A DNA stretch of 64,000 nucleotides. Origin: Saprospiraceae bacterium. Its GTDB lineage: Bacteria; Bacteroidota; Bacteroidia; Chitinophagales; Saprospiraceae. Below, piece after piece: positions 8,069-55,636 of this stretch. Every line of letters starts with the position of its first letter. Position 1 is the first letter of the stretch. The stretch lies in assembly GCA_022841745.1 (NCBI GenBank), contig JALHQW010000007.1, positions 62,001 to 126,000 of the forward strand, read 5' to 3'. The notes beneath the pieces were generated by a model that made no database searches, had not been told where the DNA came from, and saw only the letters and a list, made by a program, of their open reading frames with translations. The position numbers were made by a program, and so were the translations under genes.

Positions 8069-8151
8069 GGATTGAAGGATTAAGGGATTGAAGGATTGAA
8101 TGTGCTTCGGCTATATTCAATCCTTCAATCCCTCAATCCTTCAATCCTTGC
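8069..8151. repeat. Inverted tract of GGATTGAA / TTCAATCC octamers
   Basis: Begins at the stop codon of the GT117 gene as GGATTGAA-like units, passes through a short centre containing GTGCTTCGGC, and continues as TTCAATCC-like units up to 13 bp before the proline dehydrogenase ATG. The two halves are complementary and would form a long hairpin, possibly acting as terminator and leader at once. The same octamer occurs at 17635-17765 and inside uxaC near 55050. Confidence 0.9.
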
Positions 8152-8164
8152 TCTCTGACCAAAT

Positions 8165-9415
8165 ATGAAGAAAACGGGCAAGCCAGTTAAATCCTTTGAG
8201 CGGCTTGAGAAAATGGCCAAAGCCGTGGGGGCGGTTCCCAACCCGCCAGCCCTTGATTTTTCCAATACTGAAATCGCTTTTGCGGGAAAGAACAACGCCG
8301 AACTGAAAGAGACGGAGCGATTGTTCAAGCTCATGAACAACCGACACCTCGTTTCGATCGGCAGTATGGTTGGTATGCTGGGAACGAAGATTCCACTACC
8401 TTTTTTTGAGAAAATCACCAAGGCTACCATTTTCAAACAGTTCTGCGGGGGCACTACATTACTCGAATCCCAACCAGCCATTGAGCGGTTGGAAAAACTC
8501 GGCGTCAATTCAGTGCTCGACTATGGGGCAGAGGCCAAGGAATCGGAAGATGACTTCAATCGGACGATGAACGAGAACCTTCGGGCCATAGATTTTGGAT
8601 CAAGGTTGCCATCCGTGCCTGTCATCAGCACCAAAATCACCGGCTTGGCGAGGTTTGGCCTGCTGGAGAAAATCAGCAGCAGCCCCAATATTTCCCCCGA
8701 AGACAAGGGCGAGTTCAAAAACGTGCTGAAACGGGTGGACGCCATCTGCCACCATGCCGCACAGGTGGGCATGTCCGTTTTCATTGACGCCGAAGAGACT
8801 TGGATACAACCCGCCATTGACCTACTGGCCAACCGCATGATGAAGCGATACAACAAAGAGAAAGTGGTCGTCTTCAACACCTTCCAGATGTACCGCACCG
8901 ACCGACTGTCCTTCTTGATGGAATCGTTTGATTTGGCCAAGCAGCAAGGTTACTTGCTCGGCGCAAAGCTGGTACGGGGTGCCTACATGGACAAAGAGCG
9001 CAAACGTGCCGAAGACATGGGCTACCCCTCTCCTATCCAACCCAACAAAGAAGCCACCGACCACGATTACGACCTCGGCGTGCAATTTTGCATCGAAAAT
9101 TATGAGCAGATTGCGCTTTGCAATGCCTCGCACAACGCCAACAGCAGCCTTAAAATGGCCGCCCTCATTTCATCGAAAAACCTGCCCAAAAACCATCCCC
9201 ACTTGCAGTTTTGCCAACTGCTCGGCATGAGCGACAATATCACTTTCAATCTTGCCAAGGCGGGCTACAACGTGGCGAAGTACATGGTTTACGGGCAGGT
9301 GAAGGAGGTTATCCCTTACCTCATCCGCCGGTCCCACGAGAACAGTTCTGTGACTGGGGACGTGAGCCGGGAACTGGATTTGATTTTGAAAGAGGTGAGG
9401 AGGAGGGGGATGTAA
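8165..9415 (+). CDS. putA: Proline dehydrogenase
   Basis: 416 residues. FAD-dependent oxidation of L-proline to pyrroline-5-carboxylate, the first step of proline catabolism. The protein shows the PRODH barrel signatures FIDAEETW, KLVRGAYM with a following basic segment (about residues 265-280), and the substrate-binding RRSHENSS near residue 388. It lacks the DNA-binding and P5C dehydrogenase parts of the large PutA proteins, as is usual for monofunctional PRODH in Bacteroidota. The start is the ATG at 8165, right after the octamer inverted tract. It ends at a double hairpin. No P5C dehydrogenase gene is present in the window. The symbol is used in the monofunctional sense (also called prodh). 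Confidence 0.93.
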   Translation: MKKTGKPVKSFERLEKMAKAVGAVPNPPALDFSNTEIAFAGKNNAELKETERLFKLMNNRHLVSIGSMVGMLGTKIPLPFFEKITKATIFKQFCGGTTLLESQPAIERLEKLGVNSVLDYGAEAKESEDDFNRTMNENLRAIDFGSRLPSVPVISTKITGLARFGLLEKISSSPNISPEDKGEFKNVLKRVDAICHHAAQVGMSVFIDAEETWIQPAIDLLANRMMKRYNKEKVVVFNTFQMYRTDRLSFLMESFDLAKQQGYLLGAKLVRGAYMDKERKRAEDMGYPSPIQPNKEATDHDYDLGVQFCIENYEQIALCNASHNANSSLKMAALISSKNLPKNHPHLQFCQLLGMSDNITFNLAKAGYNVAKYMVYGQVKEVIPYLIRRSHENSSVTGDVSRELDLILKEVRRRGM

Positions 9416-9481
9416 ATTTCGCCTCAGCGCATGGGAAGGTTGCGAAAAGTTGATAATCTTCTGAAATCAACTTTTTGCAAC

Positions 9482-9572
9482 CACAATAAACAACGGCGGC
9501 GGCATCTTCGATGCCGCCGCCGTTGTTTATTGTGTGTCCTGCGGTTTTGCTCCGCAAAACCACAGGACACAC
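9482..9572. terminator. Double hairpin terminator between convergent genes
   Basis: The first hairpin is a perfect 24-bp stem (9482-9505 with 9511-9534) around a CTTCG loop; its core is GGCGGCGGCAT. The second, overlapping its foot, pairs 9531-9550 with 9554-9572 with one mismatch, and has a TTTTGC-TCC-GCAAAA apex. It separates proline dehydrogenase from the convergent PKD-repeat gene. It is one of three multi-hairpin clusters in this window. Confidence 0.85.
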
Positions 9573-9585
9573 ATTCGACCAAAGA

Positions 9586-16575: not shown

Positions 16576-17433
16576 ATGTCAACCATGTTGAAAAAAGACT
16601 ATTCCAAGACAAAACCTGTTTGCAAGGTTACTTTCACCCTTCCAGCCGAGGCCGCTCAAGGTGGCTCGGAAGTCCGCATCCTCGGCGACTTCAACGACTG
16701 GAGCTGGGAGAATGGCTACAAAATGAAATCAGGCAAAGCCGAATTCACGACTGAAGTTGAACTCACTGCTGGCAAAGAGTACCAGTTCCGTTACTTGATT
16801 GACAACCACATCTGGGAAAATGACTGGAATGCCGACAACTACCTTCCCACGCCGTTTGGGGTTTACAATTCCGTTCTTTCCCTGCGTGAAGTAGCTGCCG
16901 CCGCCACTGCAAAAGCTGCTGCCACGAAGGCAGAAGCAAAGCCAGCCGTTGCAAAAGCTGCTGCACCCAAAGCAGCGGTAAAAACTGCAACCAAGAAAGT
17001 AGCTGAGAAAGCTACCGCACCGAAGGCAGAAGCCAAACCTGCCGTTGCAAAAGCTGTTGCACCCAAGGCTGAGGTAAAAACTGCAACCAAGAAAGTGGCC
17101 GAGAAAGCCGCTGCACCTGTTGCCAAAACTGCTCCTAAAGCAGCCGCTGCCAAACCTGCAGCTGCCAAGGCTGCCGTTGTTGCCGACGACCTGACCAAAA
17201 TCGAGGGCATCGGCCCGAAAATTGCCGAGCTGCTCAAGGCTGCTGGCATCGTTACCTTCAAAGACCTCTCCGCTGCAAAGGCTGCAAACGTTAAGAGCAT
17301 ACTCGACGCAGCTGGCAAGCGCTTTCAAATGCACGACCCAAGCACTTGGGCCGATCAGTCAAAGCTCGCTGCTAATGGTGAGTGGGAGAAATTGGCCAAG
17401 CTTCAGGACGCCCTCAAAGGCGGCAAGAAGTAA
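16576..17433 (+). CDS. CBM48 / Ala-Lys linker / helix-hairpin-helix fusion protein
   Basis: 285 residues with no signal peptide, so presumably cytoplasmic. Residues about 14-105 form a CBM48 (isoamylase-N/AMPK-beta-like) glycogen-binding domain: VRILGDFNDWSWENGYKM, then YQFRYLIDNHIWENDW. Residues about 106-200 are a low-complexity Ala/Lys/Pro linker with repeated KAEVKTATKKVAEKA-like units, reminiscent of histone H1-like tails. Residues about 204-285 form a helix-hairpin-helix module (LTKIEGIGPKIAELLKAAGI) followed by DPSTWADQSKLAANGEWEKL, the same type seen fused to other Bacteroidota proteins. The gene is monocistronic, between a promoter box and a strong terminator. Possible roles are nucleoid or glycogen-granule association; neither is shown by the sequence. 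Confidence 0.85.
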   Translation: MSTMLKKDYSKTKPVCKVTFTLPAEAAQGGSEVRILGDFNDWSWENGYKMKSGKAEFTTEVELTAGKEYQFRYLIDNHIWENDWNADNYLPTPFGVYNSVLSLREVAAAATAKAAATKAEAKPAVAKAAAPKAAVKTATKKVAEKATAPKAEAKPAVAKAVAPKAEVKTATKKVAEKAAAPVAKTAPKAAAAKPAAAKAAVVADDLTKIEGIGPKIAELLKAAGIVTFKDLSAAKAANVKSILDAAGKRFQMHDPSTWADQSKLAANGEWEKLAKLQDALKGGKK

Positions 17434-17634: not shown

Positions 17635-17765
17635 TTCAATCCCTTAATCCTTCAACCCCTTAATCCTTCAACCCCTCAATCCTTCAACCCCTCAATTCTT
17701 CAACCCCTCAATTCTTCAATCCTTCAATCCTTCAATCCTTCAATCCTTCAATCCTTCAATCCTTA
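17635..17765 (+). repeat. Tandem octamer tract (TTCAATCC) abutting the yebC start codon
   Basis: About sixteen 8-bp units. The upstream ones vary (TTCAACCCC, TTAATCC, TTCAATTC) and the last six or so are identical. The tract ends 2 bp before the ATG at 17768. The ORF across it (LQSFNPS repeats) is not a gene, but the same reading is captured inside uxaC. Confidence 0.95.
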
Positions 17766-17767
17766 CA

Positions 17768-18487
17768 ATGGGAAGAGCATTTGAATATCGCAAGGCAACT
17801 AAAATGAAACGCTGGGCTGGCATGGCCAAGGCGTTCACAAGGGTAGGCAGGCAGATTGCATTGGCCGTTAAATCCGGCGGCCCTGACCCGAACTACAACC
17901 CACGCTTACGATTGGCCGTGCAAAACGCCAAGGCCGTCAACATGCCCAGGGCAAATGTTGACAATGCCATCAAGAAGGCAACCTCCAAGGACTCGGAGAA
18001 CTACGAAGAAGTCATCTACGAGGGCTACGCACCGCATGGCATTGCCATTTTGGTGGAAACGGCTACCGATAACACCACCCGCACCGTGGCCAACGTCCGC
18101 CATGTGTTTTCAAAATATGGTGGCTCATTGGGAACATCTGGCTCGGTGAGCTATATGTTCGCACACAAGGCCGTCTTCGTCGTGGCAAAATCAGCCATCG
18201 CCGACCGTGATGAGTTTGAGTTGGAAATGATTGACGCAGGATTGGAGGACATCCGGGAAGAAGAAGACATGTACTTGCTCACCGCCGATTTTAGCGATTT
18301 TGGCACCCTGAACAAAGCCTTGGAGGACAAGGGAATCGAGATTCAGGAGTCGAAGTTCGATCGGGTACCATCCATGCTAAAGCGCCTTACTGACGAGGAG
18401 GTGGAGGATGTCATCAAGCTGATAGAAAAAATGGAGGAGGACGACGACGTTCAAAACGTTTTCCATACCATGGATATGTCGGAATGA
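17768..18487 (+). CDS. yebC: YebC/PmpR-family protein (TACO1-like)
   Basis: 239 residues, the normal family length. The N-terminal part MGRAFEYRKATKMKRWAGMA is typical of the Bacteroidota branch; canonical members read MAGHSKW. It is followed by FTRVGRQIALAVKSGGPDP, NMPRANVDNAIKKA and EGYAPHGIAILVE. The acidic C-terminal third is also typical. Family members bind nucleic acid or ribosomes and act as transcriptional or translation-elongation regulators; which applies here is unknown. The start ATG at 17768 is directly preceded by the octamer tract, an unusual leader. It ends at a palindromic terminator shared with the convergent gene. Confidence 0.95.
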   Translation: MGRAFEYRKATKMKRWAGMAKAFTRVGRQIALAVKSGGPDPNYNPRLRLAVQNAKAVNMPRANVDNAIKKATSKDSENYEEVIYEGYAPHGIAILVETATDNTTRTVANVRHVFSKYGGSLGTSGSVSYMFAHKAVFVVAKSAIADRDEFELEMIDAGLEDIREEEDMYLLTADFSDFGTLNKALEDKGIEIQESKFDRVPSMLKRLTDEEVEDVIKLIEKMEEDDDVQNVFHTMDMSE

Positions 18488-33220: not shown

Positions 33221-36139
33221 ATGAATAGGTCATTTTTACTTTCACTATTCTTTTCAACCCTTGCCGTCATCTGTTCGGCGCAGGTCACAGGTCTGGTGAC
33301 CGATGTCAACGGTGAGCCATTGATTGGGGCAACAGTGCTGCTTAAAGGCACCGACCAAGGTACCATTACCGAAATGGACGGCACCTATAGCCTTGATGCA
33401 AAGGACGGTGTCCTTATTTTTTCCTTCACCGGGTTCGAGGCACAGGAAATACCCATTGAAGGCAAAAAAAGGATTGACGTGGTACTCCAAACCGCCAACC
33501 TGAACCTCAACGAAATTGTGGTCATTGGCTACGGAACCCAGCGAAAGGCCGACATTACGACCGCTGTGGTGGTGGTGGACGAAGCGTCCATTAAAAACCG
33601 CCCAATGGTATCCGCTGCTGAGGCACTTCAAGGCAAAGCGGCGGGCGTGCAGGTGGTGCAGCCCAGCGGCAAACCCGGCGGCGACATCTCCGTAAGGGTG
33701 CGTGGTTCTACTTCCGTGACAGCTGGCAACGAGCCGCTATACGTGGTGGACGGCGTACCGACCACCGACATCAGGGGCCTTAACCCCGCCGATATTGCCA
33801 GCATGACTGTGCTGAAGGATGCCTCCTCTGCGGCAATTTATGGTGCAAGAGCAGCCAATGGCGTGGTCATCATCACGACCAAAAGGGGCAAGGAAGGCGT
33901 TTCCACGGTGACCTTCAATGCCTATTATGGCATGTCTAACCTACGAAGGACGGTGGAAACCCTAGGCACGAGGGACTATCGTGACCTGATAAATGAAATC
34001 ATACCAGGTGCTTATGACCCTGCTTGGACCAACTACACCAACTGGAGCGATGAAACATTTGGCGTTGGCCAAGTGCAGAGCTACCAACTGGCTTTTGCCG
34101 GAGGAAATGAAAAAACCCGCTACCTGTTCTCCACGAACTACCTCAACCAACAGGGCATCGTAGCCCCAGCCAGTTTTGACCGCTATTCCATGCGCCTAAA
34201 TTTGGACAACCAAGTGAACAAGTGGCTGAAAATGGGCACCAACCTCAACCTGCTCCGTTCTTCCACAGAAGACACCCCTGACAATGCCAGCAGTGGCCGT
34301 GGCGGCGTCATCATGAGTGCGTTGAACACACCGCCTTTCTTAAGAACCTACAAAGCCGATGGCAGCGGGCAATACGACCCGAACCCGTTCCAGCCCTCAT
34401 GGGAGAACCCAATCGCCTATATGTTTGGAGCTGACCAGCGGTCAATTGACACCCGCATTTTTGGCAACGCCAACCTCGAAGCCACGGTTTTCAAAGGCTT
34501 CTCGCTAAAAACGAACCTCGGTGTTGACCTGAATGCGCACCAATGGGATTACTACCTCGACCCCTTCCGCACCAATTTCGGGCGTGACCAGCGAGGCATC
34601 GGCAGGGCCGACAAGTCCAATACGAATGTTTGGCTTTGGGAAAACACGGCCAACTACCAGACCACCTTTGGCGAAAGCAAAATCGGCTTTCTGGTAGGTA
34701 GCAGCGTACAAAAATCGAGGTGGAGCGATTCGTACCTCAGCGGCTACGATTATCCCACAGATACCCTCGTGAAGACCTTGAATGCCGCCAATGTGATATC
34801 TGGCAGCACCGACGTACAAGAATGGGCGTTGGCATCGTTCTTTGGCCGCCTATCTTATGATTACAAAAGCAAGTACCTGCTCACGGCCACCCTGCGTCGG
34901 GATGGTTCTTCCAAACTGGCGAACCCTTGGGGCACCATGCCTTCCTTCTCAGTGGGATGGCGAATTTCAGAGGAGCCATTCATGGACGGGTTTAACGGCA
35001 TTTACGACATGAAAATAAGGGTGGGCTGGGGCAAAAATGGCAACCAGGAGGGTATTTCCAACTATGCCAAATATGGACTCATTTCTTACTTCCGGCGCAC
35101 ACCGACCAACCCACTTTCAGGTCCAGCTGCCGTACAGGTCTCTTACGGCAATCCTGACCTGAAATGGGAGACAACCACCCAATCGAACATCGGTGTGGAC
35201 TTGGCCTTGTACCGTGGCCGGGTCAATTTCACCGCTGACGCCTACTATAAAAAGACAGAAGACCTCATCCTGAACGTGCAACTCCCAAGCTCATTGGACA
35301 TCAATACCCTTCAAACAAACGCTGGAACGGTGGAGAACAAGGGGCTTGAGTTCGGACTTTCGACGGTGAATACCGAGGGACGTGCCTTGAGTTGGACAAC
35401 GGACCTAAACATTTCCTTCAACCGCAACAAGGTGCTCGACCTGCAATACACCGATGTGTATTTCTTTGGGCCGATTTATAGCAACAACCAAGACGTGGCT
35501 ATTGTGCGGAAAGGGCTGCCGCTGGGCGTGTTCTATGGCTATGTTTCGGATGGCGTTGACCCCGAAACGGGCGACCTTATTTTTAGGGACGTGAACGAAA
35601 ACGGCATCTGGGACACGGGCGACCGCACCGTCATTGGCGATGCCAACCCTGACTTCACCTATGGTATCACGAACAACCTGTCTTGGAAGAACTTCGACCT
35701 GAACATCTTCTTCCAAGGCAGCCAGGGCAACGATATTTACAACGCTACCCGTATTGACTTAGAGGGCATGTTCGACAGCAAGAACCAGAGCACCGCCGTA
35801 TTGCGCCGCTGGACGCCAGAGAACAGGGACACGGACATCCCAAGGGCCAGGAACCTCTACAATGTCAACAACTCGTCCCGTTTCGTGGAGGATGGTTCCT
35901 ATATCCGTTTGAAGGCCATCACCTTGTCCTACAACGTGAACCCAAAATCGCTTGAACGGTTGAAAGTACAGAAAATGTCGGTCTATGTGACGGGCCAAAA
36001 CCTGCTCACCTTCACCAATTACAGCGGCTTCGACCCAGAGGTGAACGCCTTTGGTCGCAGCGCCGTGGAGCAGGGCATTGACTACGGCACCTACCCGCAG
36101 GCAAGGACGCTGACGGCAGGGGTGAACGTGGAGTTTTAA
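33221..36139 (+). CDS. SusC/RagA-family TonB-linked outer-membrane transporter
   Basis: 972 residues. Signal peptide at residues 1-20 (FLLSLFFSTLAVICSAQ). Carboxypeptidase-regulatory-like domain at about 23-98 (GLVTDVNGEPLIGATVLLKG). Plug signatures: IVVIGYGTQRKADITTAV, VRVRGSTSVTAGNEPLYVVD and MTVLKDASSAAIYGARAANG. The remainder is the beta-barrel, with a C-terminal YIRLKAITLSYNV and a terminal GVNVEF. No STN domain. It pairs with the susD at 36469-37935, separated by 329 bp, and is only moderately similar to the leftward SusC at 24412-27471, suggesting a different ligand size or linkage. Confidence 0.96.
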   Translation: MNRSFLLSLFFSTLAVICSAQVTGLVTDVNGEPLIGATVLLKGTDQGTITEMDGTYSLDAKDGVLIFSFTGFEAQEIPIEGKKRIDVVLQTANLNLNEIVVIGYGTQRKADITTAVVVVDEASIKNRPMVSAAEALQGKAAGVQVVQPSGKPGGDISVRVRGSTSVTAGNEPLYVVDGVPTTDIRGLNPADIASMTVLKDASSAAIYGARAANGVVIITTKRGKEGVSTVTFNAYYGMSNLRRTVETLGTRDYRDLINEIIPGAYDPAWTNYTNWSDETFGVGQVQSYQLAFAGGNEKTRYLFSTNYLNQQGIVAPASFDRYSMRLNLDNQVNKWLKMGTNLNLLRSSTEDTPDNASSGRGGVIMSALNTPPFLRTYKADGSGQYDPNPFQPSWENPIAYMFGADQRSIDTRIFGNANLEATVFKGFSLKTNLGVDLNAHQWDYYLDPFRTNFGRDQRGIGRADKSNTNVWLWENTANYQTTFGESKIGFLVGSSVQKSRWSDSYLSGYDYPTDTLVKTLNAANVISGSTDVQEWALASFFGRLSYDYKSKYLLTATLRRDGSSKLANPWGTMPSFSVGWRISEEPFMDGFNGIYDMKIRVGWGKNGNQEGISNYAKYGLISYFRRTPTNPLSGPAAVQVSYGNPDLKWETTTQSNIGVDLALYRGRVNFTADAYYKKTEDLILNVQLPSSLDINTLQTNAGTVENKGLEFGLSTVNTEGRALSWTTDLNISFNRNKVLDLQYTDVYFFGPIYSNNQDVAIVRKGLPLGVFYGYVSDGVDPETGDLIFRDVNENGIWDTGDRTVIGDANPDFTYGITNNLSWKNFDLNIFFQGSQGNDIYNATRIDLEGMFDSKNQSTAVLRRWTPENRDTDIPRARNLYNVNNSSRFVEDGSYIRLKAITLSYNVNPKSLERLKVQKMSVYVTGQNLLTFTNYSGFDPEVNAFGRSAVEQGIDYGTYPQARTLTAGVNVEF

Positions 36140-36468
36140 CCCTTTTGTATTAATTTTTTATGATTTAAGATATATGATAGACGATTTAAGATTTAAGATT
36201 GGGAGTGCCATGCTAAATCAAAAATCTCATATCTTCTATCCTTAAGCCTAAATCAGCTAAAAAGCTATAGTGGAGCGCTTTTTTAATTGATGAGAACGAA
36301 AGGGTCTTCAAAATTTCCCAGCCCTTTTCGAGAGACGGGGTTATTAAACTCCGCTGTTCCGGAATAACGGGGTTTAATAACTCCGCCTCTAGAAAGGAAC
36401 TGCGTCAGTTAAAACATCCCACTAACAGCTATTAATCCATGTGTTTATCGGCTTTAAATAAAAGAGTC
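36140..36468. other. susC-susD intergenic region with degenerate repeats
   Basis: About 330 bp without a gene. Degenerate GATTTAAGAT units occur at 36170-36200, and their complement (ATCTTCTATCCTTAAGCC) at 36232-36249, forming a loose inverted structure. At 36336-36390 two near-palindromic words, CGGGGTTATTAAACTCCG and CGGGGTTTAATAACTCCG, stand in tandem. The gap is long for a susC-susD pair. Confidence 0.7.
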
Positions 36469-42904: not shown

Positions 42905-42941
42905 CCCCTGACTGCCCACTGCCCACTGTCGAACTGCCAAC
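42905..42941 (-). repeat. Stop-codon-adjacent GGCAGT repeat element
   Basis: Read on the minus strand, GTTGGCAGTTCGACAGTG starts directly after the TGA of the giant adhesin gene and is followed by GGCAGTGGGCAGTCAGG. The same element follows the stops at 3858 and 56926. Confidence 0.8.
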
Positions 42942-45900
42942 TCACCTAATCACCGCCACATCCCCCTTCAACAACTTCCGTTCCCCCGTTACCAATTCCA
43001 CTTCGGCATACCAAACGAACACGCCAAAGTCCACGTCCTTGCCCCGGAAGGTGCCGTCCCAGCCGGTTGCCACATCATTTGGCCGTAGGTCAAAACCTTG
43101 GAACACTGCCTCGCCCCAGCGGGTGAAGACTTGGAAAGAAGGGATGGTTTTCACTTGGCTTTCATCCGCAAAAACCAACAGCACGTCATTGATGCCATCG
43201 CCGTTGGGGGAGAAAATATTGGGGACGTAGATGCTGCCTTCGGATTTTATGATGATTTGCACCGAATCCAATGCACTACAATCGCTCTTGCCAACAATTC
43301 TTAAATGGTAAGTAATGCTTCCTTCAGGCGTTGCAATTGGATTAAGGCAATTCGTACAACTGAGCCAATCGGTTGGAGACCAGATTATCGAATCTATCTC
43401 AGAGATTGGTACATCAATAGTCGTATTAAGTTGAACTTGCGTCCCAATATCAACATCCCCAACATCTTGAATTGAAACAGAAACAGGAGTAGGTGGGTCT
43501 AAGGAAAACGGAGCTAAAAACTCACATCCATTAGCATCCTTCACAATCGAAAAATGATTGCCACCAGTCACATTAACAAAAATGCTATCTAGTGTATAAG
43601 AAGCACCACCATCTATCGAATATAAAAATGGCCCATTAGCAATATCTCCACCACTAAAAATCACTCGGCTGTAAACCGTTTCGCAAGGCATTACCTCTAT
43701 ACTCAGTTGTGGGAAATCTAAGGGTCCAGTAACCACATAGGTTGTATCAAACCCAAAACAGCCATTATCCAAATTCGTTACTTGCAACACATAATACCCA
43801 GGCATATTTACAACAGGATTGCTAGTTGTTGCCCCATTCACAATATTTCCAACTATTACCGTCCAATTAAAAGCAGCATTGGTCACATTGGTATTGCCAT
43901 TAAGTGATATTGTATCTTGGTCACAACCGATTTGTACTGCTTGACCTGCTTCCGCTATTGGCGGCACCGTATTTTGTCCAACAACCACTTGCTCCACATC
44001 CGAGCAGCCTGTAATCGTATCGGTTACGGTGAGCGTGTAGGTGCCTGGCAGATTGACAAAGACATCGGCAACACCTACGCCAGGGGCCACGATGCCCGGG
44101 CCTGCCCATTCATATTCGAGGTTCGGGCCGATGGTCGTCCCTAATCCAATAATGCTGGTTATCTCCAAGGTACAAGTCAATGGTTCTGGAGTCGCTACCA
44201 CTATCACAGGAGGTGCCACCGTTTGGTTCACCGTGGCCGTCGCAGTCGCAGAGCAACCAGTGGCTTGGTTGGCCACCGTCAGGGTATAGGTGCCGGGGGC
44301 GTTCACGATGGGCGTCAGGGTCGTTTGGCCGCTCACGATGCCGGGGCCTTGCCACAGGTAAAGAACACCCGCCCCAGTGCTGCTGCCCGTTCCGTCCAAC
44401 TGTACCTCCTGCGCCGTACAATCCAAGTTTTGCGGTGCTGCCGCAATGGCCGTAGGAGGTGTCGTATTGGCTGCCAAGGTGGTGGTCGCTGTCGCCGTGC
44501 AGCCGTTTGGCCCGGTGACGGTGAGCGTATAAACGCCGCCCGCATTGGCCGTTGGCGCCAAGGTCGAGGCGCCGAGCGTGATGCCGGGGCCTTGCCATTG
44601 GTAGCTGAATCCCGCCCCGGTGCTGCTGCCCGTCCCACTGAGCGGCACTTGCTGCAAAAGGCAGGTTATGCTTTGCGGCGCAGCCGCAATGGCCGTGGGC
44701 GGCGTGCTGTTCTGGATGACCGTCACCTGCGCCGTACTGGTGCAGTTGTTCGCCAAATTGGTGACGGTCAGGGTGTATATACCGGGCGCATTCACCATCG
44801 GCGAAAGGGTCGTACCGCCGCTCACCACGCCCGGCCCGGCCCACAGGTAGGTATAGACCGTGCCCGTGCTACTGCCCGTACCACTTAGCGCAATCGGCTG
44901 CGGACCGCAACCCAATTGCTGGTTGGTGTTGGCGATGGCGGTGGGCTGCTGCGCAACGTCCGTGACCTGCACACTGGCCAAGGTCTGGCAATTGTTCTGC
45001 GTGTTGGTGACCGTGAGCAGGTAGGTACCTGCGGCTGTGACCGTGGGTGTCGGGGTATTTGCGCCGGAAAAAATAGTACCGTCGCTGGTCGTCCAAATAT
45101 AGGTGATGCCAGGGCCGCTGCTGCTGCCCGTGCCATCCAGCTGCACCTGCTGCACGGAGCAGTTCAGCGTTTGCGGAGCACCTGCATCGGCGGTGGGGGC
45201 GTTGGCATCTTGGCCCACCTGCACCTCGTCCGTTGCGGAGCAACCGCTTTGCAAATCGGTGACAATCAGGGTATAAGTGCCGGGGGCGTTCACCGTAGGC
45301 ACCAGCGTGGCTTCATCTTGAAGGATATTGCCGTTCTGTGTCGTCCACACATAGCCAAAACCTGCACCACTGCTGCTTCCAGCGCCGTTCAGCAATACAT
45401 TTGATTGCCCACAAAGCAGTGTTTGCGCAGCACCTGCCTCAGCGGTCGGCAAATTGCCGTTCTGTGCCACCAGCACCGATTCGCTGGCCGAGCAGCCCGT
45501 CTGGACGTTCGTCACCGTGAGCGTATAAGTGCCCGGCGAGCCGATGGTTGGCGTGAGCGAACCGGGGCCGGAGACGATGCCCGTGCCTGTGCCAGTGAAT
45601 GCCCAATTGTAAAAATACTCGATACCCGTGGGTGCCGTGGCCGAAAGCTGCAACTGCGTAACGGTGCAGTTCAAGCTGCCCGGTGGGGCAATGTCCACGT
45701 CGGGTAGGTTGCCAATGGACGCCACGGTCACAGCATCGGAAGCTGAGCAGCCATTGGTGGCATTGGTGACTATGAGGGTATAGGTACCCGCACTCCCGAT
45801 GGTGATGGTTTGGCTCGTTTCGTTCGTTGACCATAGGTAGCTGATGCTGGGGCCTTGGCTGCTGCCGCTACCATCCAATATGGCCGATGGGTTGCCACAA

Positions 45901-48527
45901 TCCAGCGTCGGTGCAGGGCCAGCGTCGGCCAAGGGCGAAAGGGTGTCAATGGCCACCGTCACCGAGGCGTTCGCTACGCAGTTATTGCCTTGGTTTAAAA
46001 GGATGAGTTGATAGACGCCGGGCTGGTTAACTGTGGGCGTCAGGGTATTGATGCCGCCCGTGAAACTGGGGCCGTTCCAGGTGATGCTGATGTTCGCCCC
46101 CGTGGAAGAACCCGTTGCATTCAGCGTGATTTCGTCCGTCTCGCAGTCGAGTTGGGTTGCTGGCGCAATGACGACGGTGGGCGCATTTGCATCCTGCGCC
46201 ACTGCCACCGAGTCAATGGCCGTGCAGCCGTTTGCCGCATTTTCCACCAATAAAAAATAAGTGCCGACCCCGTTCACTTCCGGCGTCAGCGTCGTGTCAC
46301 CATGGACGATATTGCCGCCCGTGGTCGTCCATTCGTAGCTGATGCCGCCGCCCGTGCTGCTCCCCGTCCCGTTCAGGTTCACGGGGGTTCCGATGCAGTC
46401 CAGCGTGGTGTTTTGTCCTGCTTGCGCAATGGGCGGCGTGGTATTCGCAACGACCGTTACCGAGGCAGAGGCCGTACAGCCATTGGCCGTATTGGAAACA
46501 ATGAGGACGTAAGTGCCCGCACTGCCCACCCAAGGGGTCAGCGTGTTCTGGCCATTGAGGAACGTGCCCCCATTTTGCGCAGCCCAAACAAAGCCAAAAC
46601 CCGCACCGTTGCTGGATTGCGCAGCGGTCAATTGCAAGGAATCCACCACACAGTTGAGCTGCTGCGCCGGGGGCGCAATGGCGGCGGTCGGCAAGGCGAA
46701 ATTCGCAGTGACAACTAGGGTATCCGTTGCGGAGCAACCATTTGTATTGTTCGTGACTATCAGGATATAAATCCCAGCCGAGTCCACGGTGGCCGTTGGG
46801 CCATTGGTTGGGCTGGTAAAATGGCCGTTGGGGGTGCCCCATTGGTAGCCAATATTTCCCCCGCTGCTACTGCCCGTGCTGGATAGCGTGACCGTATTTG
46901 CGGAGCAACTCAAATTACCGGAGGCAACCGCAATGGCCGTGGTGGCCGAGCCGTCTGCCGTAACCGTCGTGGTCGCAGTGGCGGTACAGCCGTTTAGGCC
47001 GTTGGTGACGGTGAGGGTGTAAAGGCCAGGAGCGTTCACCACGCAGTTGTTCAAGGTAGTTTGGCCGGATTGGACGCCGGGGCCTTGCCATAGGTAGGTG
47101 ACGTTACTTCCCGTGCTGCTGCCGTTGCCGCTGAGGGTAACGGAGGTTGCGCTGCACGAAAGCATGTTTGGGGCACTGGCCGCAGCGGTCGGCAATGCAA
47201 TGTCCTCGTCAACAAAAGCCGTGGAAGTGGCCGTGCAGCCGCTGATGCTATTGGTGACGGTGAGGGTGTAAAGACCCGGTTCGTCCACCTCGGCAATGGG
47301 TGTACCTTGCCCAAAAATGAGGTTGGCCGCTGGTTCCCATAGGTAACTGATGGTGCTGCCGGAGGAGGAAGCGCTGGCATCTATGGTCACACTGGTCTGC
47401 GAGCAATTGAGGCTGCCCGGCGGCGAAATAATGGCATTGACCACGTTCGGGTCGGGCAGCACTTCGATGGTTTTGGAATCGGTGCAAGTGCCGCTACCGG
47501 TATCGAAACTGACGGTGAGCGTATAGGTGCCATCGGCGTTCACGGTGGCGATTGGGCTGTTGGCGCCACCAATGATGGAGGGGCCATCCCATGAATAGGT
47601 AATATTGGGGCCGGAGGAAGAGGCGCTGCCATCGAGGTCAATCCCATTGGCGACTTGGTTGCAGGGCAGTACAATGGTGGGAGGGAGGACAGCGTCCACC
47701 TCAGCCACGTCCACCATGACTTGGTCGGTGGCCGTGCAAGCTTCTGCAAAATAAATATCGTCCAAGACGTAGTCGTCGCCGAGAAAGCCGTTGCCGCCGC
47801 TGATTTGGTCAACGATGCAAACCTGCGCCGTGGTGGCGCCGCCAGAGAACCAAGCCGCACCGAACTGCTGCCAGTTGCAACCCGAGCCTACTGCATAGGG
47901 CGTACCTACAGGCGTACCGTTCACGACGAATTGCAGCGAAGGCGGGGTAATGGGCGATGCCGCCGCCCATGCGCTCATGGTGTACCAAGTGTTTGGCGAA
48001 ACTGGCACGGTCTGGCAATAGACCTGTGAACCAGCCGTCCCAGTGCCGTTGACGAGCATCATATAGCCCGTGCCATTGCCGAAGGTATGGTCATCGCAGG
48101 GCGGAAAATTGGAATTCACCAAACTGGGCGAGGTCGTCAGCGTATAGGTTCCCGGCGTGATAGGCGTCGGGGTGTAAGTGTACTGGCTGGTGAAGCCCGT
48201 GTTTCCAGCTTCAAAATCGGGGTTAGTGAGCATATTGGGCGCCGAAGGGTCGAATGCCTGCGCCGAAAGGGTATAGGTCATCGGCCCTGTGACCGTGGCA
48301 ATGGGGTTCAGCACATTGGGGTTGCTAAGCCCCGTGGCAGGCGACCATGAAAAGCCGAGGGGGGTGCCGGAGACATCGCCGTCCAGCGTGGTCATGCCGT
48401 TCTGGTTGCAGACGAACTTATCGGGGCCTGCGTCAACGGTGATGCCGGGGCATTGGGCATGTAGCGGCAATTGCGCCAGCAGGAAAAGGATAAACAGGTA
48501 GGGCTTGTAGTGGAAATTGGTGCTCAT
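42942..48527 (-). CDS. Giant Ig/PKD-like repeat adhesin with T9SS type B sorting domain
   Basis: 1861 residues from the ATG at 48527, the first giving a signal peptide (YLFILFLLAQLPLHAQ). Residues about 90-270 hold a carbohydrate-binding-like beta-sandwich (LTNPDFEAGNTGF, then WYTMSAWAAASP). About sixteen repeats of roughly 80-85 residues follow, each with DGTGSSTGxxxxYxW, TLTPxVNxPGTYTLTVTN, GCxAxA and LxC motifs. The C-terminus is the type B (CHU_C) sorting domain: VPNIFSPNGDGINDVLLVF, then VFTRWGEAVFQG, GWDG and GDVAVIR. Expected to be a long, extended surface adhesin. Its stop codon directly abuts a GGCAGT element, and its upstream side holds a triple hairpin. Confidence 0.92.
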   Translation of the reverse strand: MSTNFHYKPYLFILFLLAQLPLHAQCPGITVDAGPDKFVCNQNGMTTLDGDVSGTPLGFSWSPATGLSNPNVLNPIATVTGPMTYTLSAQAFDPSAPNMLTNPDFEAGNTGFTSQYTYTPTPITPGTYTLTTSPSLVNSNFPPCDDHTFGNGTGYMMLVNGTGTAGSQVYCQTVPVSPNTWYTMSAWAAASPITPPSLQFVVNGTPVGTPYAVGSGCNWQQFGAAWFSGGATTAQVCIVDQISGGNGFLGDDYVLDDIYFAEACTATDQVMVDVAEVDAVLPPTIVLPCNQVANGIDLDGSASSSGPNITYSWDGPSIIGGANSPIATVNADGTYTLTVSFDTGSGTCTDSKTIEVLPDPNVVNAIISPPGSLNCSQTSVTIDASASSSGSTISYLWEPAANLIFGQGTPIAEVDEPGLYTLTVTNSISGCTATSTAFVDEDIALPTAAASAPNMLSCSATSVTLSGNGSSTGSNVTYLWQGPGVQSGQTTLNNCVVNAPGLYTLTVTNGLNGCTATATTTVTADGSATTAIAVASGNLSCSANTVTLSSTGSSSGGNIGYQWGTPNGHFTSPTNGPTATVDSAGIYILIVTNNTNGCSATDTLVVTANFALPTAAIAPPAQQLNCVVDSLQLTAAQSSNGAGFGFVWAAQNGGTFLNGQNTLTPWVGSAGTYVLIVSNTANGCTASASVTVVANTTPPIAQAGQNTTLDCIGTPVNLNGTGSSTGGGISYEWTTTGGNIVHGDTTLTPEVNGVGTYFLLVENAANGCTAIDSVAVAQDANAPTVVIAPATQLDCETDEITLNATGSSTGANISITWNGPSFTGGINTLTPTVNQPGVYQLILLNQGNNCVANASVTVAIDTLSPLADAGPAPTLDCGNPSAILDGSGSSQGPSISYLWSTNETSQTITIGSAGTYTLIVTNATNGCSASDAVTVASIGNLPDVDIAPPGSLNCTVTQLQLSATAPTGIEYFYNWAFTGTGTGIVSGPGSLTPTIGSPGTYTLTVTNVQTGCSASESVLVAQNGNLPTAEAGAAQTLLCGQSNVLLNGAGSSSGAGFGYVWTTQNGNILQDEATLVPTVNAPGTYTLIVTDLQSGCSATDEVQVGQDANAPTADAGAPQTLNCSVQQVQLDGTGSSSGPGITYIWTTSDGTIFSGANTPTPTVTAAGTYLLTVTNTQNNCQTLASVQVTDVAQQPTAIANTNQQLGCGPQPIALSGTGSSTGTVYTYLWAGPGVVSGGTTLSPMVNAPGIYTLTVTNLANNCTSTAQVTVIQNSTPPTAIAAAPQSITCLLQQVPLSGTGSSTGAGFSYQWQGPGITLGASTLAPTANAGGVYTLTVTGPNGCTATATTTLAANTTPPTAIAAAPQNLDCTAQEVQLDGTGSSTGAGVLYLWQGPGIVSGQTTLTPIVNAPGTYTLTVANQATGCSATATATVNQTVAPPVIVVATPEPLTCTLEITSIIGLGTTIGPNLEYEWAGPGIVAPGVGVADVFVNLPGTYTLTVTDTITGCSDVEQVVVGQNTVPPIAEAGQAVQIGCDQDTISLNGNTNVTNAAFNWTVIVGNIVNGATTSNPVVNMPGYYVLQVTNLDNGCFGFDTTYVVTGPLDFPQLSIEVMPCETVYSRVIFSGGDIANGPFLYSIDGGASYTLDSIFVNVTGGNHFSIVKDANGCEFLAPFSLDPPTPVSVSIQDVGDVDIGTQVQLNTTIDVPISEIDSIIWSPTDWLSCTNCLNPIATPEGSITYHLRIVGKSDCSALDSVQIIIKSEGSIYVPNIFSPNGDGINDVLLVFADESQVKTIPSFQVFTRWGEAVFQGFDLRPNDVATGWDGTFRGKDVDFGVFVWYAEVELVTGERKLLKGDVAVIR

Positions 48528-48788: not shown

Positions 48789-50732
48789 TTATTGCACCAC
48801 CACCCTTTCCACCTGCACCTGCCCATCCACGCTGCGGAAGCGAACAAGGTAAACGCCTTTCTCCCGCAGCCAAAGCTCATAATTGCCTGATTTATTGGGC
48901 AGTTGCTCTATGGGGCGTCCACTAAGGTCGAAGACCTGCACCTCATGGATTTTGGTGGATTCAACGAAGAGGCGGCCATTGCTGCTGAGGGTCGGATAGA
49001 GCTTCACAAAAGACGCTTTTTGCGGTTGCTTGGTGCTGCTCGGCAGGGCGTCCACGGTCATCTGCACCGAGCGGACGAGCACGGGCGCACGATCCGCCGC
49101 ATCGAACATGGTGCGGAAAGTTTCAACCTCTGGTGTTGTGACGGAGAACATCTCATCCATCCATTTCGGCGGAAGGGGTTGGTAATAGACATTGGCAGTC
49201 ACGTGCAATTGCTCCCAGACGCCATTCATGGGGATGAAATAATGTACCACATCGCTGCCCGTACCTTCCAACGCACCGTCCCGATTGAAGGAAAGGTCGG
49301 AGGCATCCACGCCAGCTATCAAGGTGGTATCGTAGGCATAGTGGGAAGTGGTGAAACCAAGCGGTGGGAGGCGGTTGTCCTTGATGGCTTCCTTGGCCCG
49401 CACGAGCACGGTGGTCACGTCGCCGTTTACATCGCCCAGCACCAATTCATAAATCTGCACTTGTTCTTCATCGGTGATAACTTGATAATGCGGCTCATAG
49501 GTGTCATTTTGGCCCATGACTTCGTATTTCCCATCCATTTTACCGGAAACAAAAACCGTATCGCCCGACTCCGTTTGCACCACGAACTGGATAAAAGCCC
49601 GACGGGACGGATAGCCCGACGGGAACTTGTGCCCCGCCAAATTGGTGAGCTTAACGGCGATTTTGGCCGTATCCAATGTCCTGTCAATCAAGCCAATATC
49701 AAGCAGCAAGGTCTTGTTCTGGAGTATGTCCTTGGTTTTTAGCAGCACATCCTGAAATTGGGACGGGCCGGCGGTGAGGCCAAGGGCATCCACGTTGTCA
49801 CGAAACAGGCCGAGCATGGTCACGTTGCCGCCCACGAGTTCGTGCAGATAATAGGGGCTGCGTGGCTCGGTGTTGGCCCCGGTCACGAGACGCACGGGCC
49901 ATTTATCGAGGCTGGGCATGTGGCAGCCTTGGCAAGAAAGACTGTCACGGTAGGCCGAATTGACCCATTCGTGGTAGGTGGCCTGTTCGACGAACTTATC
50001 GCCAGTGGGCGTTCCCGCAAAATCAACCGTTTCCGTGACGAGTGTATGGCAACCAGCGCAAGCTTCGCCCTTGCTCATTTTTTCACTGAACTTCGGTTTA
50101 TAGCCTGTCTCGGTCAACATCGGGCTTACCAACGGCGAGGTATAAGGGCCGTAAGCAACTTTGAAAGTATCATAAGTCAATTCTCCACTGAACGAGGTGC
50201 CCATCAAATCCTGCTCCATCATGTGGCAAGCAAGGCAGGAGACACCGTCCAAAGCCAGCGAGTCATCTAACATATCGGCAATGCCATAGTGCAGGGCACC
50301 CAGGTGCTTGGCATCGAAATGCCCCATTGGGGCGTGGCAAGACGTGCATTTGTCCTCGATTTTTTCCTTGTGCTGTGGATAGAGCAATACCTCGTGGCTC
50401 ACCTTTGCCCGCCAGAATGGATCCCTGGCAGAATTGGCCATCATCGTCGCCCGCCAGTCGTCGGTCACGTTCACGTCGTTGCCGTTCTGGTCAACGCTGG
50501 CAATGCCAAGTGTGTCGAAGCCGTGGCATTTCTGGCAGACGCCGCTGCCTGCAAAAAGGTAGTTATAGCCCTGCGGCAAACTAGTGTCGCCCAGCATCAT
50601 CTGGAAATGCGCCATCTCGGCCTCGGAATGGAAACGCTGGATCTCGGCGTCTTTTTCCAAGGTGAGGTTGGCCAGCAGCAGGGGCAGGGCAAGCAGTGGG
50701 ATGCAAACGAGTAGTGTATTGCGGTATTTCAT
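48789..50732 (-). CDS. Pentahaem cytochrome c with T9SS type A sorting domain
   Basis: 647 residues from the ATG at 50732 (signal peptide YRNTLLVCIPLLALPLLLA). Five CxxCH haem-binding motifs lie in the first 271 residues: CQKCH 66-70, CTSCH 129-133, CLACH 166-170, CAGCH 225-229 and CQGCH 267-271. A beta-rich middle follows (KLTNLAGHKFPSGYPSRRAF, a segment seen in other multihaem proteins). The C-terminal 75 residues are a Por-type sorting domain (KLYPTLSSNGRLFVES, then LREKGVYLVRF). This implies a cytochrome passed through T9SS to the cell surface, perhaps for extracellular electron transfer or redox enzymology. The electron partner is unknown. An 8-bp tandem tract precedes the start codon. 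Confidence 0.9.
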   Translation of the reverse strand: MKYRNTLLVCIPLLALPLLLANLTLEKDAEIQRFHSEAEMAHFQMMLGDTSLPQGYNYLFAGSGVCQKCHGFDTLGIASVDQNGNDVNVTDDWRATMMANSARDPFWRAKVSHEVLLYPQHKEKIEDKCTSCHAPMGHFDAKHLGALHYGIADMLDDSLALDGVSCLACHMMEQDLMGTSFSGELTYDTFKVAYGPYTSPLVSPMLTETGYKPKFSEKMSKGEACAGCHTLVTETVDFAGTPTGDKFVEQATYHEWVNSAYRDSLSCQGCHMPSLDKWPVRLVTGANTEPRSPYYLHELVGGNVTMLGLFRDNVDALGLTAGPSQFQDVLLKTKDILQNKTLLLDIGLIDRTLDTAKIAVKLTNLAGHKFPSGYPSRRAFIQFVVQTESGDTVFVSGKMDGKYEVMGQNDTYEPHYQVITDEEQVQIYELVLGDVNGDVTTVLVRAKEAIKDNRLPPLGFTTSHYAYDTTLIAGVDASDLSFNRDGALEGTGSDVVHYFIPMNGVWEQLHVTANVYYQPLPPKWMDEMFSVTTPEVETFRTMFDAADRAPVLVRSVQMTVDALPSSTKQPQKASFVKLYPTLSSNGRLFVESTKIHEVQVFDLSGRPIEQLPNKSGNYELWLREKGVYLVRFRSVDGQVQVERVVVQ

Positions 50733-50733: not shown

Positions 50734-50766
50734 TTTCGATTTCGGATTTCGGATTTCGGATTTCGG
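50734..50766 (-). repeat. 8-bp tandem tract before the cytochrome start codon
   Basis: Four units of GGATTTCG on the plus strand; in the sense of the gene it reads CCGAAATC repeated, ending a few bases before the ATG. Comparable to the tracts before yebC and uxaC. Confidence 0.9.
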
Positions 50767-53288: not shown

Positions 53289-53423
53289 CTTGGAAATCTA
53301 TTTATGCTTTTTCCTCGCCGCCGTAATCGCTTTGAGCGAAGTTGCTTGTTCACAACGTTGGTAGCGGGGTGCCAAGAGCCTTAGCATGATTTCACCGAAG
53401 GTTATTATTTTACTTTTTATCAC

Positions 53424-53431
53424 TATTTTTG
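53424..53431 (+). promoter_or_regulatory. Candidate -7 promoter box (TATTTTTG)
   Basis: Exact TAnnTTTG match 13 bp before the MNT-type ATG, implying a very short leader. The gap around it (53289-53444) holds nothing else. Confidence 0.45.
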
Positions 53432-53444
53432 TGAAAATTTGAAC

Positions 53445-53795: not shown

Positions 53796-54141
53796 GGCCG
53801 AGCGTGACCTTGGACTTGCTCGTGATGCCTTCGGTCTTGACAAAGACTACTGGGATTTGATTTGTTACCACTGTCAACAAGCCACTGAAAAATTCTTCAA
53901 AGCAAATTTGATTTACCACCAAATCAATTTTCCACGCACCCATGACCTTGAATTACTACTGAACCTTATTGCTCAAAAAGAGATTTTACCTCCTGATTTT
54001 ATACAAAATGCTTTGGCCATCAATGATTATGGGATTCAGGTCAGGTATCCTGGCTTTCCTTACGAACCAACCGATGTCGATGCGAGCGAGGCCATTCAGA
54101 TTGCAGAAAACTTCCGTGCATTTATCCTTTCAAAAATATGA
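53761..54141 (+). CDS. HEPN-domain protein, partner of the MNT gene
   Basis: 126 residues starting at ATG 53761, inside the end of the MNT gene in another frame. HEPN (PF05168) features: WVIKAERDLGLARDAF, ICYHCQQATEKFFKANLIY and THDLELLL. The RNase-type RxxxxxxH motif of HepT toxins was not found, so this may be the nucleotide-binding HEPN subtype rather than an active RNase. Together with MNT it forms a two-gene unit resembling a toxin-antitoxin or abortive-defence module. It ends 1 bp before the stop of uxaC on the other strand. Confidence 0.9.
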   Translation: MTAQNPQDWVIKAERDLGLARDAFGLDKDYWDLICYHCQQATEKFFKANLIYHQINFPRTHDLELLLNLIAQKEILPPDFIQNALAINDYGIQVRYPGFPYEPTDVDASEAIQIAENFRAFILSKI

Positions 54142-54142
54142 C

Positions 54143-55594
54143 TTAAACCCCGAAGTACGCCTTCGCATTCCGATAGCAAATATCCTCCACAATACTACCC
54201 AGCCAATTCACATCATTCGGCAGTTCGCCATTGTGTATGTCCTTTCCAATCAGGTTGCAGAGCAACCGACGGAAATACTCATGCCGGGGGAAAGATAGAA
54301 AACTACGGCTGTCCGTAAGCATTCCGATGAAACAACTAAGCAATCCCATATTGGATAGGGCGTTGATTTGCCGCTCCATACCGTCTTTTTGGTCGAGGAA
54401 CCACCAAGCGGAACCGAACTGCATTTTGCCACGCACCGAACCATCATTGAAATTGCCAATCATAGAGGCCATGACCTCGTTGTCACGGGGATTGAGGTTG
54501 TAGAGGATGGTTTTTGCCAATTTGCCCTCCATGTCGAGCCGGTTGAGGTACTTGGAGAGGGCAGCCGCCTGCGCCCAATCGCCGATGCTGTCAAAGCCCG
54601 TGTCAGGGCCGAGTTGACCGAGCAGGCGGGCGTTGTTGTTGCGGAGCGCACCAAGATGGTACTGCTGCACCCATCCCCGGTCGGCATACTGGCAGCCTAG
54701 GTGGTATAGCACGGCGGACATGTACCTGCGGGCCTCCCCTTCTGTAATTTTTTGCCCCGACAGCCGGTTTTGGAAAATGGCATTGACCTCACCTAACGTA
54801 AAGTCCTCCGAGTAGGTTTGCTCCAACCCGTGGTCAGCAATTCTACAGCCGTTTTCATGAAAATAGTCCATGCGCTGGGTCAGTGCCTGCAACAAATCGT
54901 CAAATGATTGGATGGCCATGCCAGCAGCTTCGCTCAGTTTTTCGATGTAATTTTTGAAGCCATCGTTCAGAATCAGGATGGACTTGTCGGGACGGAAGGC
55001 GGGGAGGAGTTGGAAGGATTCGGTTCCCTTCGGGAATGACAAGGAAGGATTGAAGGATTGAAGGGGGGAAGCCTGTTTACTATACTGGCGATGGTAGTGC
55101 AGGTCGTCCACGGGGTCGTCGGTGGTGCAGACGACTTCGACGTTCATATTTCGTAGCAAATTTTGGGTGGAAAATGCAGCTGTTTGCAGCAATTCGCTGC
55201 AATGATGATAAACCTGCTCGGCATTGTAAGGTGTCAGCAGCTCGTCAACATCGAAATAACGCCTCAATTCCAAGTGCGTCCAATGGAACAATGGGTTTCG
55301 GATGGTATAGGGCACTGTTTCCGCCCATTTCTTGAACTTCTCCAAGGGTGGCGCTTCGCCTGTGATATAGTGCTCCGGGATGCCGAAACTGCGCATGGCC
55401 CGCCACTTGTAATGGTCGCCGTTGAGCCAAATGGCGGTCAGGTTCTCGAAGTTTTTATTGCTCGCTATGTCTTCTGGTGACAGGTGGTTGTGGTAGTCTA
55501 TGATGGGCTGCTTGGCGGCAAAGTCGTGGTAGAGGATTTCAGCCATGCGGTTTTCCAGCAGGAAGTTGTCGTCGAGGAAGGGTTTGATGGTCAT
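54143..55594 (-). CDS. uxaC: Glucuronate isomerase with an inserted repeat-derived segment
   Basis: 483 residues. Converts D-glucuronate to fructuronate (and galacturonate to tagaturonate). Family signatures: DYHNHLSPEDIA with the metal-binding HNH, TTDDPVDDLHYHRQ, LPAFRPDKS and FDSIGDWAQA. Between YHRQ and RPDK there are about 30 residues, against about 15 in the E. coli enzyme as I recall it. The extra piece, residues about 174-195, translates a TTCAATCC octamer tract plus a GTCATTCCCGAAGGGAA word, so it looks like a repeat captured in frame. Whether the enzyme still works is unknown; the frame is intact. An upstream tandem tract abuts the ATG at 55594. Confidence 0.94.
   Translation of the reverse strand: MTIKPFLDDNFLLENRMAEILYHDFAAKQPIIDYHNHLSPEDIASNKNFENLTAIWLNGDHYKWRAMRSFGIPEHYITGEAPPLEKFKKWAETVPYTIRNPLFHWTHLELRRYFDVDELLTPYNAEQVYHHCSELLQTAAFSTQNLLRNMNVEVVCTTDDPVDDLHYHRQYSKQASPLQSFNPSLSFPKGTESFQLLPAFRPDKSILILNDGFKNYIEKLSEAAGMAIQSFDDLLQALTQRMDYFHENGCRIADHGLEQTYSEDFTLGEVNAIFQNRLSGQKITEGEARRYMSAVLYHLGCQYADRGWVQQYHLGALRNNNARLLGQLGPDTGFDSIGDWAQAAALSKYLNRLDMEGKLAKTILYNLNPRDNEVMASMIGNFNDGSVRGKMQFGSAWWFLDQKDGMERQINALSNMGLLSCFIGMLTDSRSFLSFPRHEYFRRLLCNLIGKDIHNGELPNDVNWLGSIVEDICYRNAKAYFGV
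55008..55074 (-). repeat. Octamer-type repeat inserted within uxaC
   Basis: Read in the gene's sense, TTCAATCCTTCAATCCTTCC is followed by a short CCCGAAGGGAA palindrome. It encodes LQSFNPSLSFPKGTESF, the same reading as the octamer tract upstream of yebC. Confidence 0.85.
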
Positions 55595-55595
55595 T

Positions 55596-55636
55596 GTTCG
55601 TGATTGGTGATTCGTGATTGGTGATTCGTGATTCGG
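55596..55636 (-). repeat. 7/14-bp tandem tract before the uxaC start codon
   Basis: Alternating GTGATTG and GTGATTC units on the plus strand; in the gene's sense, AATCACC / AATCACG repeated, ending at the ATG with a few bases of spacing. Confidence 0.9.

Follow-up and report, generated by a model that had tools for sequence, protein, structure and literature searches.

Tandem repeats with units of about seven base pairs (bp) are found between genes in several groups of bacteria. This report concerns arrays of 7–8 bp units at gene boundaries in a Saprospiraceae bacterium (Bacteroidota; GenBank assembly GCA_022841745.1, an 8.43-Mb draft genome of 178 contigs, here G000). The arrays were noticed in a 64,000-nucleotide (nt) stretch, positions 62001–126000 of contig JALHQW010000007.1 (C7), which is called the window below. 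A preliminary description of the window placed short tandem repeats directly before the start codons of several unrelated genes, among them those for proline dehydrogenase (ProDH), YebC, a cytochrome and UxaC.

Several described systems are close to these arrays, and they are summarized here from the accessible portions of the reports. Heptameric GGGAATC and GGGGA(T/C)T repeats are described in Xanthomonas and Nostoc sp. PCC 7120, intergenic ones among them. Within 50 bp of a stop codon, and in all cases that overlap the stop, the coding strand is G-rich; within 50 bp of a start codon the non-coding strand is G-rich, i.e. the array is C-rich in sense. Tandemly inverted cases are mentioned, and the loci are more conserved than controls (PMC4692102). 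The cyanobacterial repeats named STRR are usually 7 bp in unit length, lie between genes and can form hairpins, and roles in transcript stability, translational coupling and termination have been suggested (PMC2670836). In marine Beggiatoaceae, TAACTGA repeats are found mostly a few bases upstream of starts in one orientation, with a proposed role in translation, and they are also present in some Cyanobacteria and five Bacteroidetes (PMC4679880). Repetitive extragenic palindromes are dispersed, and parts in termination and in stabilizing mRNA have been suggested for them (PMC3733652). Further intergenic repeats of Nostoc, some of them hairpin-forming (PMC2408588), and tandem heptamers in Geobacter (PMC2700814) have also been reported. 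The heptamer repeats of cyanobacteria and other bacteria are still unexplained, and these reports each treat a single unit or a single locus.

Position and polarity of the arrays

The survey covered the window and a sample of 1.6 Mb of the same genome outside it, consisting of the first 100 kb of 16 contigs. Genes were called with a dicodon model and a self-trained start model, which gave 1068 genes including those of the window, 981 with ATG starts. Rows from Tandem Repeats Finder (TRF) with periods 7 and 8 and a score of at least 40 were merged into arrays. The sample and window yielded 130 rows of period 7 and 90 of period 8. A third-order Markov control of the 1.6-Mb sample yielded none of either period, thus the arrays are not a product of chance. 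There are 201 merged arrays in the sample and 168 are intergenic, though the DNA is 84% coding; at scores of 80 or more, 24 are intergenic and none coding. An array is present in 125 of 949 spacers.

Arrays gather at both ends of genes. Within 10 bp of a start codon there are 38 arrays against 14.3 expected (sd 3.4; maximum 25), and within 10 bp of a stop codon there are 71 against 23.9 expected (maximum 37), the expectations coming from 500 random placements within the same spacers. The polarity differs between the two ends. Of 74 arrays within 10 bp of a stop, 70 are G-rich when read in the direction of the gene that ends there, and in tandem spacers all 41 arrays situated 0–30 bp before a start are C-rich in sense; of the three that overlap a start, two are C-rich and one is G-rich. 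Mean sense composition is G 0.39 and C 0.08 at stops, and G 0.09 and C 0.32 at starts. Arrays within coding sequence show no clear polarity (16 C-rich, 13 G-rich). A sister genome, G004 (400 kb), displays 10 arrays at starts (3.1 expected) and 11 at stops (5.0 expected), with the same polarity in 11 of 12 at starts and 11 of 14 at stops.

The enrichment before start codons that the preliminary description put forward for a genome-wide check thus holds in the 1.6 Mb outside the window, and the G-poor sense strand that it noted in the window's tracts is borne out. However, a rule confined to starts is rejected, as stops are more enriched than starts (71 vs 38); the description had itself named tracts equally common past stop codons as a refuting outcome. 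The start rule is real yet is one side of a two-sided rule. The same description saw the tracts as built on AATC-like words, which fits those of the window but not the genome, where units such as CTTTTTA, CCGTCCA and CATACCT are also found. The 201 arrays show 75 different consensus units, with near variants counted apart; the most common are AAGGATTG, AATCCGC, AATCACG and ACCTCCAT.

Two trivial sources of the polarity were considered. General spacer composition is rejected for stops: in 609 array-free genes the first 10 nt past the stop are near neutral (G 0.218, C 0.195), which makes the bias past stops a property of the arrays. General G-poor leaders do fit the start side, and the self-trained start signal consists of an A-rich segment at −14 to −11 in a G-poor leader. 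An A-rich start signal is also reported for Flavobacterium johnsoniae in the available part of PMC6847099. A side effect of reading frame is at most a partial cause. Stop codons occur in all three frames in 26 of 72 stop-abutting arrays and in no frame in 16 of 72, and the polarity also holds for stop-free units, GATTGCG and GGATGCT.

Individual words recur outside this genome as well. The cytochrome-leader word CCGAAATC is found at dozens of places in the relative G012 and at few in G004 or G007 among the matches listed, which suggests that different species amplified different words. Four tandem copies, (TTCAATCC)4, are present in many Bacteroidota and also in Microcoleus, Symploca, Calditrichia, Chlorobiaceae, Pantoea and Paenibacillus records.

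Hairpins in array spacers

An inverted partner is found in the same spacer for 98 of 164 intergenic arrays (score at least 24), a score reached by 5–6% of arrays when matched against other array spacers. Among paired arms, 48 of 53 on the left are G-rich and 43 of 45 on the right are C-rich, giving the geometry stop–(G-rich arm)–loop–(C-rich arm)–start. Of the 66 solo arrays, 58 are likewise G-rich or C-rich according to side. Pairing is not general, however. The 63 TTCAATCC-containing stretches from named records, some of which belong to this genus, hold 66 exact arrays; a search for partners within 250 bp leaves 58 of these solo, and the eight paired ones all have the G-left polarity.

Strong stems (score at least 32, spacers of 40–400 bp) occur in array spacers between convergent genes in 76% of 17, between tandem genes in 39% of 76 and between divergent genes in 18% of 11. 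The corresponding values for array-free spacers are 27% of 62, 13% of 377 and 6% of 93, and for shuffled spacers 0 at two decimals. Predicted RNA stability follows the same order, with median z values in array spacers of −8.6 (13 convergent), −3.0 (50 tandem) and +1.0 (2 divergent), and in sampled array-free spacers of −3.6, −1.0 and −0.3. Among 65 periodic stems, 54 are G-left, 10 C-left and one equal. Between convergent genes, the median distance of such stems is 4 bp to one stop and 3 bp to the other.

Unit variants are partly mirrored between the arms, since pairing exceeds the mean of unit-permuted arms in 34 of 40 stems. Exact mirroring of the arms is moderately supported at most, as the observed value is matched or exceeded by 27% of permutations on average.

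Orthologous spacers

Forty-two spacers were located by their flanking genes in six to eight relatives of the same genus, and 24 of them carry an array in G000. Eighteen of these 24 could be located in three or more genomes when G000 is included in the count. Ortholog stems were admitted at a score of at least 26 and spacer lengths of 40–420 bp. At eight of the 18 array spacers a stem is present in at least three genomes; one of these (set 5) is an ordinary terminator, leaving seven sets of the array type. Eight further spacers, array-free in G000, could likewise be located in three or more genomes, and none of them has stems in three. In the seven sets stems are present in 38 of 44 species-spacers, four of the six misses falling outside 40–420 bp, and the left arm is G-rich in all 38.

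The stems that recur at these seven sets carry different units in different species. Arms pair well with each other within a species (43.4, n 38) and poorly with the opposite arm of the same spacer in another species (14.9, n 182), where the score is near that between arms of different spacers (11.1, n 1224). With set 5 included the first two values are 43.0 and 14.8. The spacer before the ProDH gene is an example. Its left-arm word is GGATTGAA in G000, a mixture of GGGTTGAA and GGATTGGA in G011, GGGATGA-like in G006, GGTTTGAG in G008, GGTATGAG/GGTATGGG in G001, a weak TTGGAATGGAGGATTGGA in G004 and GTGTTTGT-like in G007. The right arm ends 12–18 bp before the ATG in six of seven genomes and 175 bp before it in G007. 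RNAalifold shows a change on both sides at 10 of 14 pairs, on a MAFFT alignment that is imperfect because the arms lack base-by-base homology.

The yebC leader, inspected by eye, contains two to four TTCAATCC-like words in G001, G006, G008, G012 and G013, and no clear array in G002, G003, G004, G005 and G009. There is a hairpin in G007 and an AATCACT/AATCACC array in G010. Both repeat copy number and unit thus differ between species. No orthologous counterpart with both flanks was found in the relatives for the spacer of the cytochrome gene or for that of uxaC.

Arrays and other features of the window

Repeat arrays are present where the preliminary description placed them, in the TRF output and in the raw sequence. 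The ProDH tract consists of two inverted arrays on the plus strand. The left, G-rich arm (unit AAGGATTG, 8067..8100; TRF, sequence and fold) overlaps the stop codon TAA 8066–8068 of the preceding TMEM260-like gene. The right, C-rich arm (unit TTCAATCC, 8116..8149; TRF, fold and orthologous spacers) stops 15 bp short of the ProDH ATG at 8165. The 89-nt stem, 8064–8152, shows 41 pairs with −65 kcal/mol and z = −13.2, and the upstream stop codon lies inside it.

The other three tracts are solo arrays. On the plus strand, 17635..17769 consists of 16.8 copies of TTCAATCC and variants (TRF) and abuts the yebC ATG at 17768. On the minus strand, 50734..50766 has the unit CCGAAATC in sense (TRF period 7) and abuts the cytochrome start at 50732, and 55597..55635, AATCACG/AATCACC in sense, abuts the uxaC start at 55594 in a divergent spacer. 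Their leaders are unstructured, with RNA z values of −1.5 for yebC, +1.4 for the cytochrome and +1.1 for uxaC.

The description of tracts abutting starts therefore stands for yebC, the cytochrome and uxaC, and that of unstructured leaders stands for the same three genes but not for just under half of the start-abutting arrays of the genome: of 41 such arrays, 18 are hairpin arms and three more are weak ones. A repeat that had been assigned to 4647–4683 in the leader of a GT117 gene is present on the plus strand as a degenerate 7-bp array, ATCCAGC/ATCAAGC, at 4645..4691. It is weak (67% matches, score 45; z −1.9), and it ends 23 bp before the ATG at 4715 of the TMEM260-like gene.

Stop-side arrays, beyond the start-side tracts noted earlier, are found in the window at 8067 and at 56925..56955 on the plus strand. 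The latter has the unit AGTTGGC, G-rich in sense, and begins within the stop codon of the gene at 56159–56926. An A+T-rich plus-strand array, TTTAAGA at 36157..36200, lies 17 bp past the stop of a gene ending at 36139; it has an inverted partner downstream by eye, and its RNA fold is not significant (z −1.2). A short array at 42911..42942 adjoins the stop of the minus-strand gene 42942–48527 and has the unit GGGCAGT, G-rich in the sense of that gene. Its TRF score of 34–36 is under the cut-off used for the counts.

Pfam matches for ProDH, YebC and UxaC are far over the cut-offs, and the gene upstream of ProDH is TMEM260-like. The support for the cytochrome is narrow (26.2 bits, cut-off 24.8). 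No Rfam family matches the window at the gathering score. The uxaC gene shows an in-frame insertion of 16 residues (48 bp) at about 55020–55070, absent from three aligned relatives, that holds copies of TTCAATCC followed by TTGTCATTCCCGAAGGGAACCGAATCC. A small palindromic motif, TTGTCATTCCCGNAGGGAA, is dispersed in coding and intergenic DNA, at C11:1032 and 1093, C16:85007, C17:72794 and 73487, and 55024 of the window; the pattern gave seven sites, one unlike the rest, and some are flanked by array words, e.g. AATCCGCAATCC. The window also contains longer tandem repeats: one of 252 bp (12.1 copies, 60950–64000) inside a large minus-strand open reading frame (ORF), 58498–63993; one of 123 bp (3.9 copies, 4020–4504) with internal ACTGCCC heptamer runs; a perfect one of 46 bp (3.4 copies, 2889–3045); and one of 96 bp (16912–17117) within ORF 16576–17433, immediately upstream of the yebC spacer.

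Discussion

The explanation favoured here, at about even confidence, is that the tracts form a genome-wide class of gene-boundary repeats in which paired stems and G-poor leaders are kept for their shape and composition. Paired arrays would act as RNA, by way of a strong stem directly after the stop codon. Such a stem would most likely insulate neighbouring or intercistronic messages and protect or define 3′ ends. Before the start codon, the G-poor leader that Bacteroidota initiation tolerates would be supplied by the C-rich arm or by a solo C-rich array. Units may drift and expand by slippage, and the arms may stay matched by copying from the opposite arm, in which case shape and composition could persist while the word changes between species. 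This explanation is favoured because of the association with stops, the pairing, the stability of the predicted RNA and the replacement of whole stems.

Confidence goes no higher because several observations weigh against this explanation. Partners are lacking for 66 of the 164 intergenic arrays (40%), and 20 of the 41 start-abutting arrays are solo, so that a hairpin is not required. Of the 949 spacers, 824 have no array. In over half of the array spacers compared, 10 of 18, a stem is either missing, weak, not within the length limits or restricted to one or two genomes. The mean pairing of arms within species is raised by the selection of stems at a score of 26, and the counts of 10 and 11 in G004 equal the highest of 500 placements. 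A weaker lean to G-left is also seen in aperiodic stems (72 G-left, 37 C-left and 11 equal, n = 120), thus the polarity is not unique to arrays. In addition, self-templating mutation could keep stems without selection.

Such a mutational origin is a possible though somewhat doubtful alternative. Arrays would originate through slippage and palindrome-templated copying, be purged from coding DNA and be tolerated in spacers, and stems would persist for a time by re-templating without function. The intergenic location of 168 of 201 arrays, the 75 consensus units (near variants counted apart), the partial mirroring of variants between arms (34 of 40 stems), the frequent solo arrays and the patchiness between species, with 10 of 18 array spacers lacking stems in three genomes, are all in keeping with it. 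However, it is hard to see why a neutral palindrome should be G-rich on the left and C-rich on the right (54 of 65 periodic stems; 38 of 38 orthologous ones), or why it should be situated a median of 3–4 bp from both stops of convergent genes, and arrays in coding sequence have no clear polarity. Polarity is the main argument against a purely mutational origin, an argument weakened by the aperiodic stems that lean the same way. The model of the preliminary description, in which unstructured G-poor leaders tune translation and changes in copy number switch expression, accounts for the start enrichment, the low G content in sense at starts (0.087), the unstructured leaders of yebC, the cytochrome and uxaC, and the wide variation in yebC-leader copy number between species. 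It appears unlikely: enrichment is greater at stops than at starts, 18 of the 41 start-abutting arrays form one arm of a hairpin, and the G-rich arrays past stops are left unexplained.

Ordinary intrinsic terminators that happen to hold repeats would also give stems that follow stops and are strongest between convergent genes. No T-tract is seen past the right arm of periodic stems, where T makes up 0.19–0.25 of the next 8 nt, and 4 of 65 right arms have TTTTT among their last 10 nt. This test separates the classes weakly and has little power, with 0.26–0.29 and 14 of 120 for aperiodic stems, and ordinary terminators are judged improbable. Insertion of mobile palindromes of the kind of repetitive extragenic palindromes (REP) or miniature inverted-repeat transposable elements (MITE) beside genes would explain the same words at many loci and in other phyla. 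The yebC array as a query found at least 62 further places in the same genome (40 of 130 candidates scored), and the 48-bp in-frame insert in uxaC bears an array. Nevertheless the loops of same-unit stems look unrelated (median pairwise local scores 8–9, maxima 10–19, in three families of three to five loops each), no constant core was seen in same-unit stems, and the same spacer has different units in sister species. Cassette mobility is rejected on the loops of these three families, and mobile palindromes in general are considered very unlikely.

A more speculative idea, which we also hold to be improbable, is that a self-templating process rewrites boundary stems, both arms being replaced together by a new 7–8 bp word. 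The architecture would then be inherited as shape and polarity, without any sequence being conserved. The process could be driven by a dedicated enzyme or by a strongly biased pathway of slippage and template switching, and it could also underlie the heptamers of cyanobacteria, Beggiatoaceae and Xanthomonas.

Whole-stem unit swaps between sister species at some spacers separate shape from sequence, which opens the choice between selection and self-templating to direct test.

Comparison with known repeats

The position and polarity rule (Xanthomonas, Nostoc), start-side heptamers (Beggiatoaceae and a few Bacteroidetes) and STRR hairpins (cyanobacteria) are already known. A 1995 paper on nif genes reportedly refers in its title to 'highly variable but structured' cyanobacterial spacers. 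The literature search, to which subscription papers were mostly external, gave no title or start of an abstract that describes orthologous unit-swapped hairpins.

The arrays resemble the TAACTGA repeats in that heptamers lie close upstream of start codons. However, as far as the available text goes, the latter consist of a single heptamer with no RNA structure predicted by itself and are mostly start-side (PMC4679880), and the 25 most common of the 75 units found here do not include TAACTGA. Like the cyanobacterial STRR, the present arrays are intergenic with tandem units of about 7 bp, although 8-bp units are nearly as frequent (90 vs 130 rows), and they can form hairpins in 98 of 164 cases but not in the other 66. 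The accessible part of PMC2670836 treats filamentous cyanobacteria and single loci, and reports neither a genome-wide test of polarity nor a swap of units between orthologs. The word shared with metagenome-assembled genomes of Microcoleus and Symploca may be due to convergence, the units being too short to trace descent.

The repeats of Xanthomonas and Nostoc share with those described here the 7-bp tandem unit and the same polarity at stops and starts. In the portion of that report available, each genome has one unit of the G4 type with GGG runs (PMC4692102), whereas 75 units of 7 or 8 bp are found here and differ between sister species; GGGAATC and GGGGA(T/C)T are not among the 25 most common of them. 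Repetitive extragenic palindromes, as described in the accessible text, are defined sequence families of 20–40 bp (PMC3733652), in contrast to the shared geometry without shared sequence seen here. Homology searches by sequence would miss elements of the latter kind.

Within the literature searched, two things are thus new. One Bacteroidota genus displays 75 consensus units in 201 arrays under a single rule, G-rich past stops, C-rich before starts and often paired, and orthologous spacers of that genus keep their stems while the unit is exchanged.

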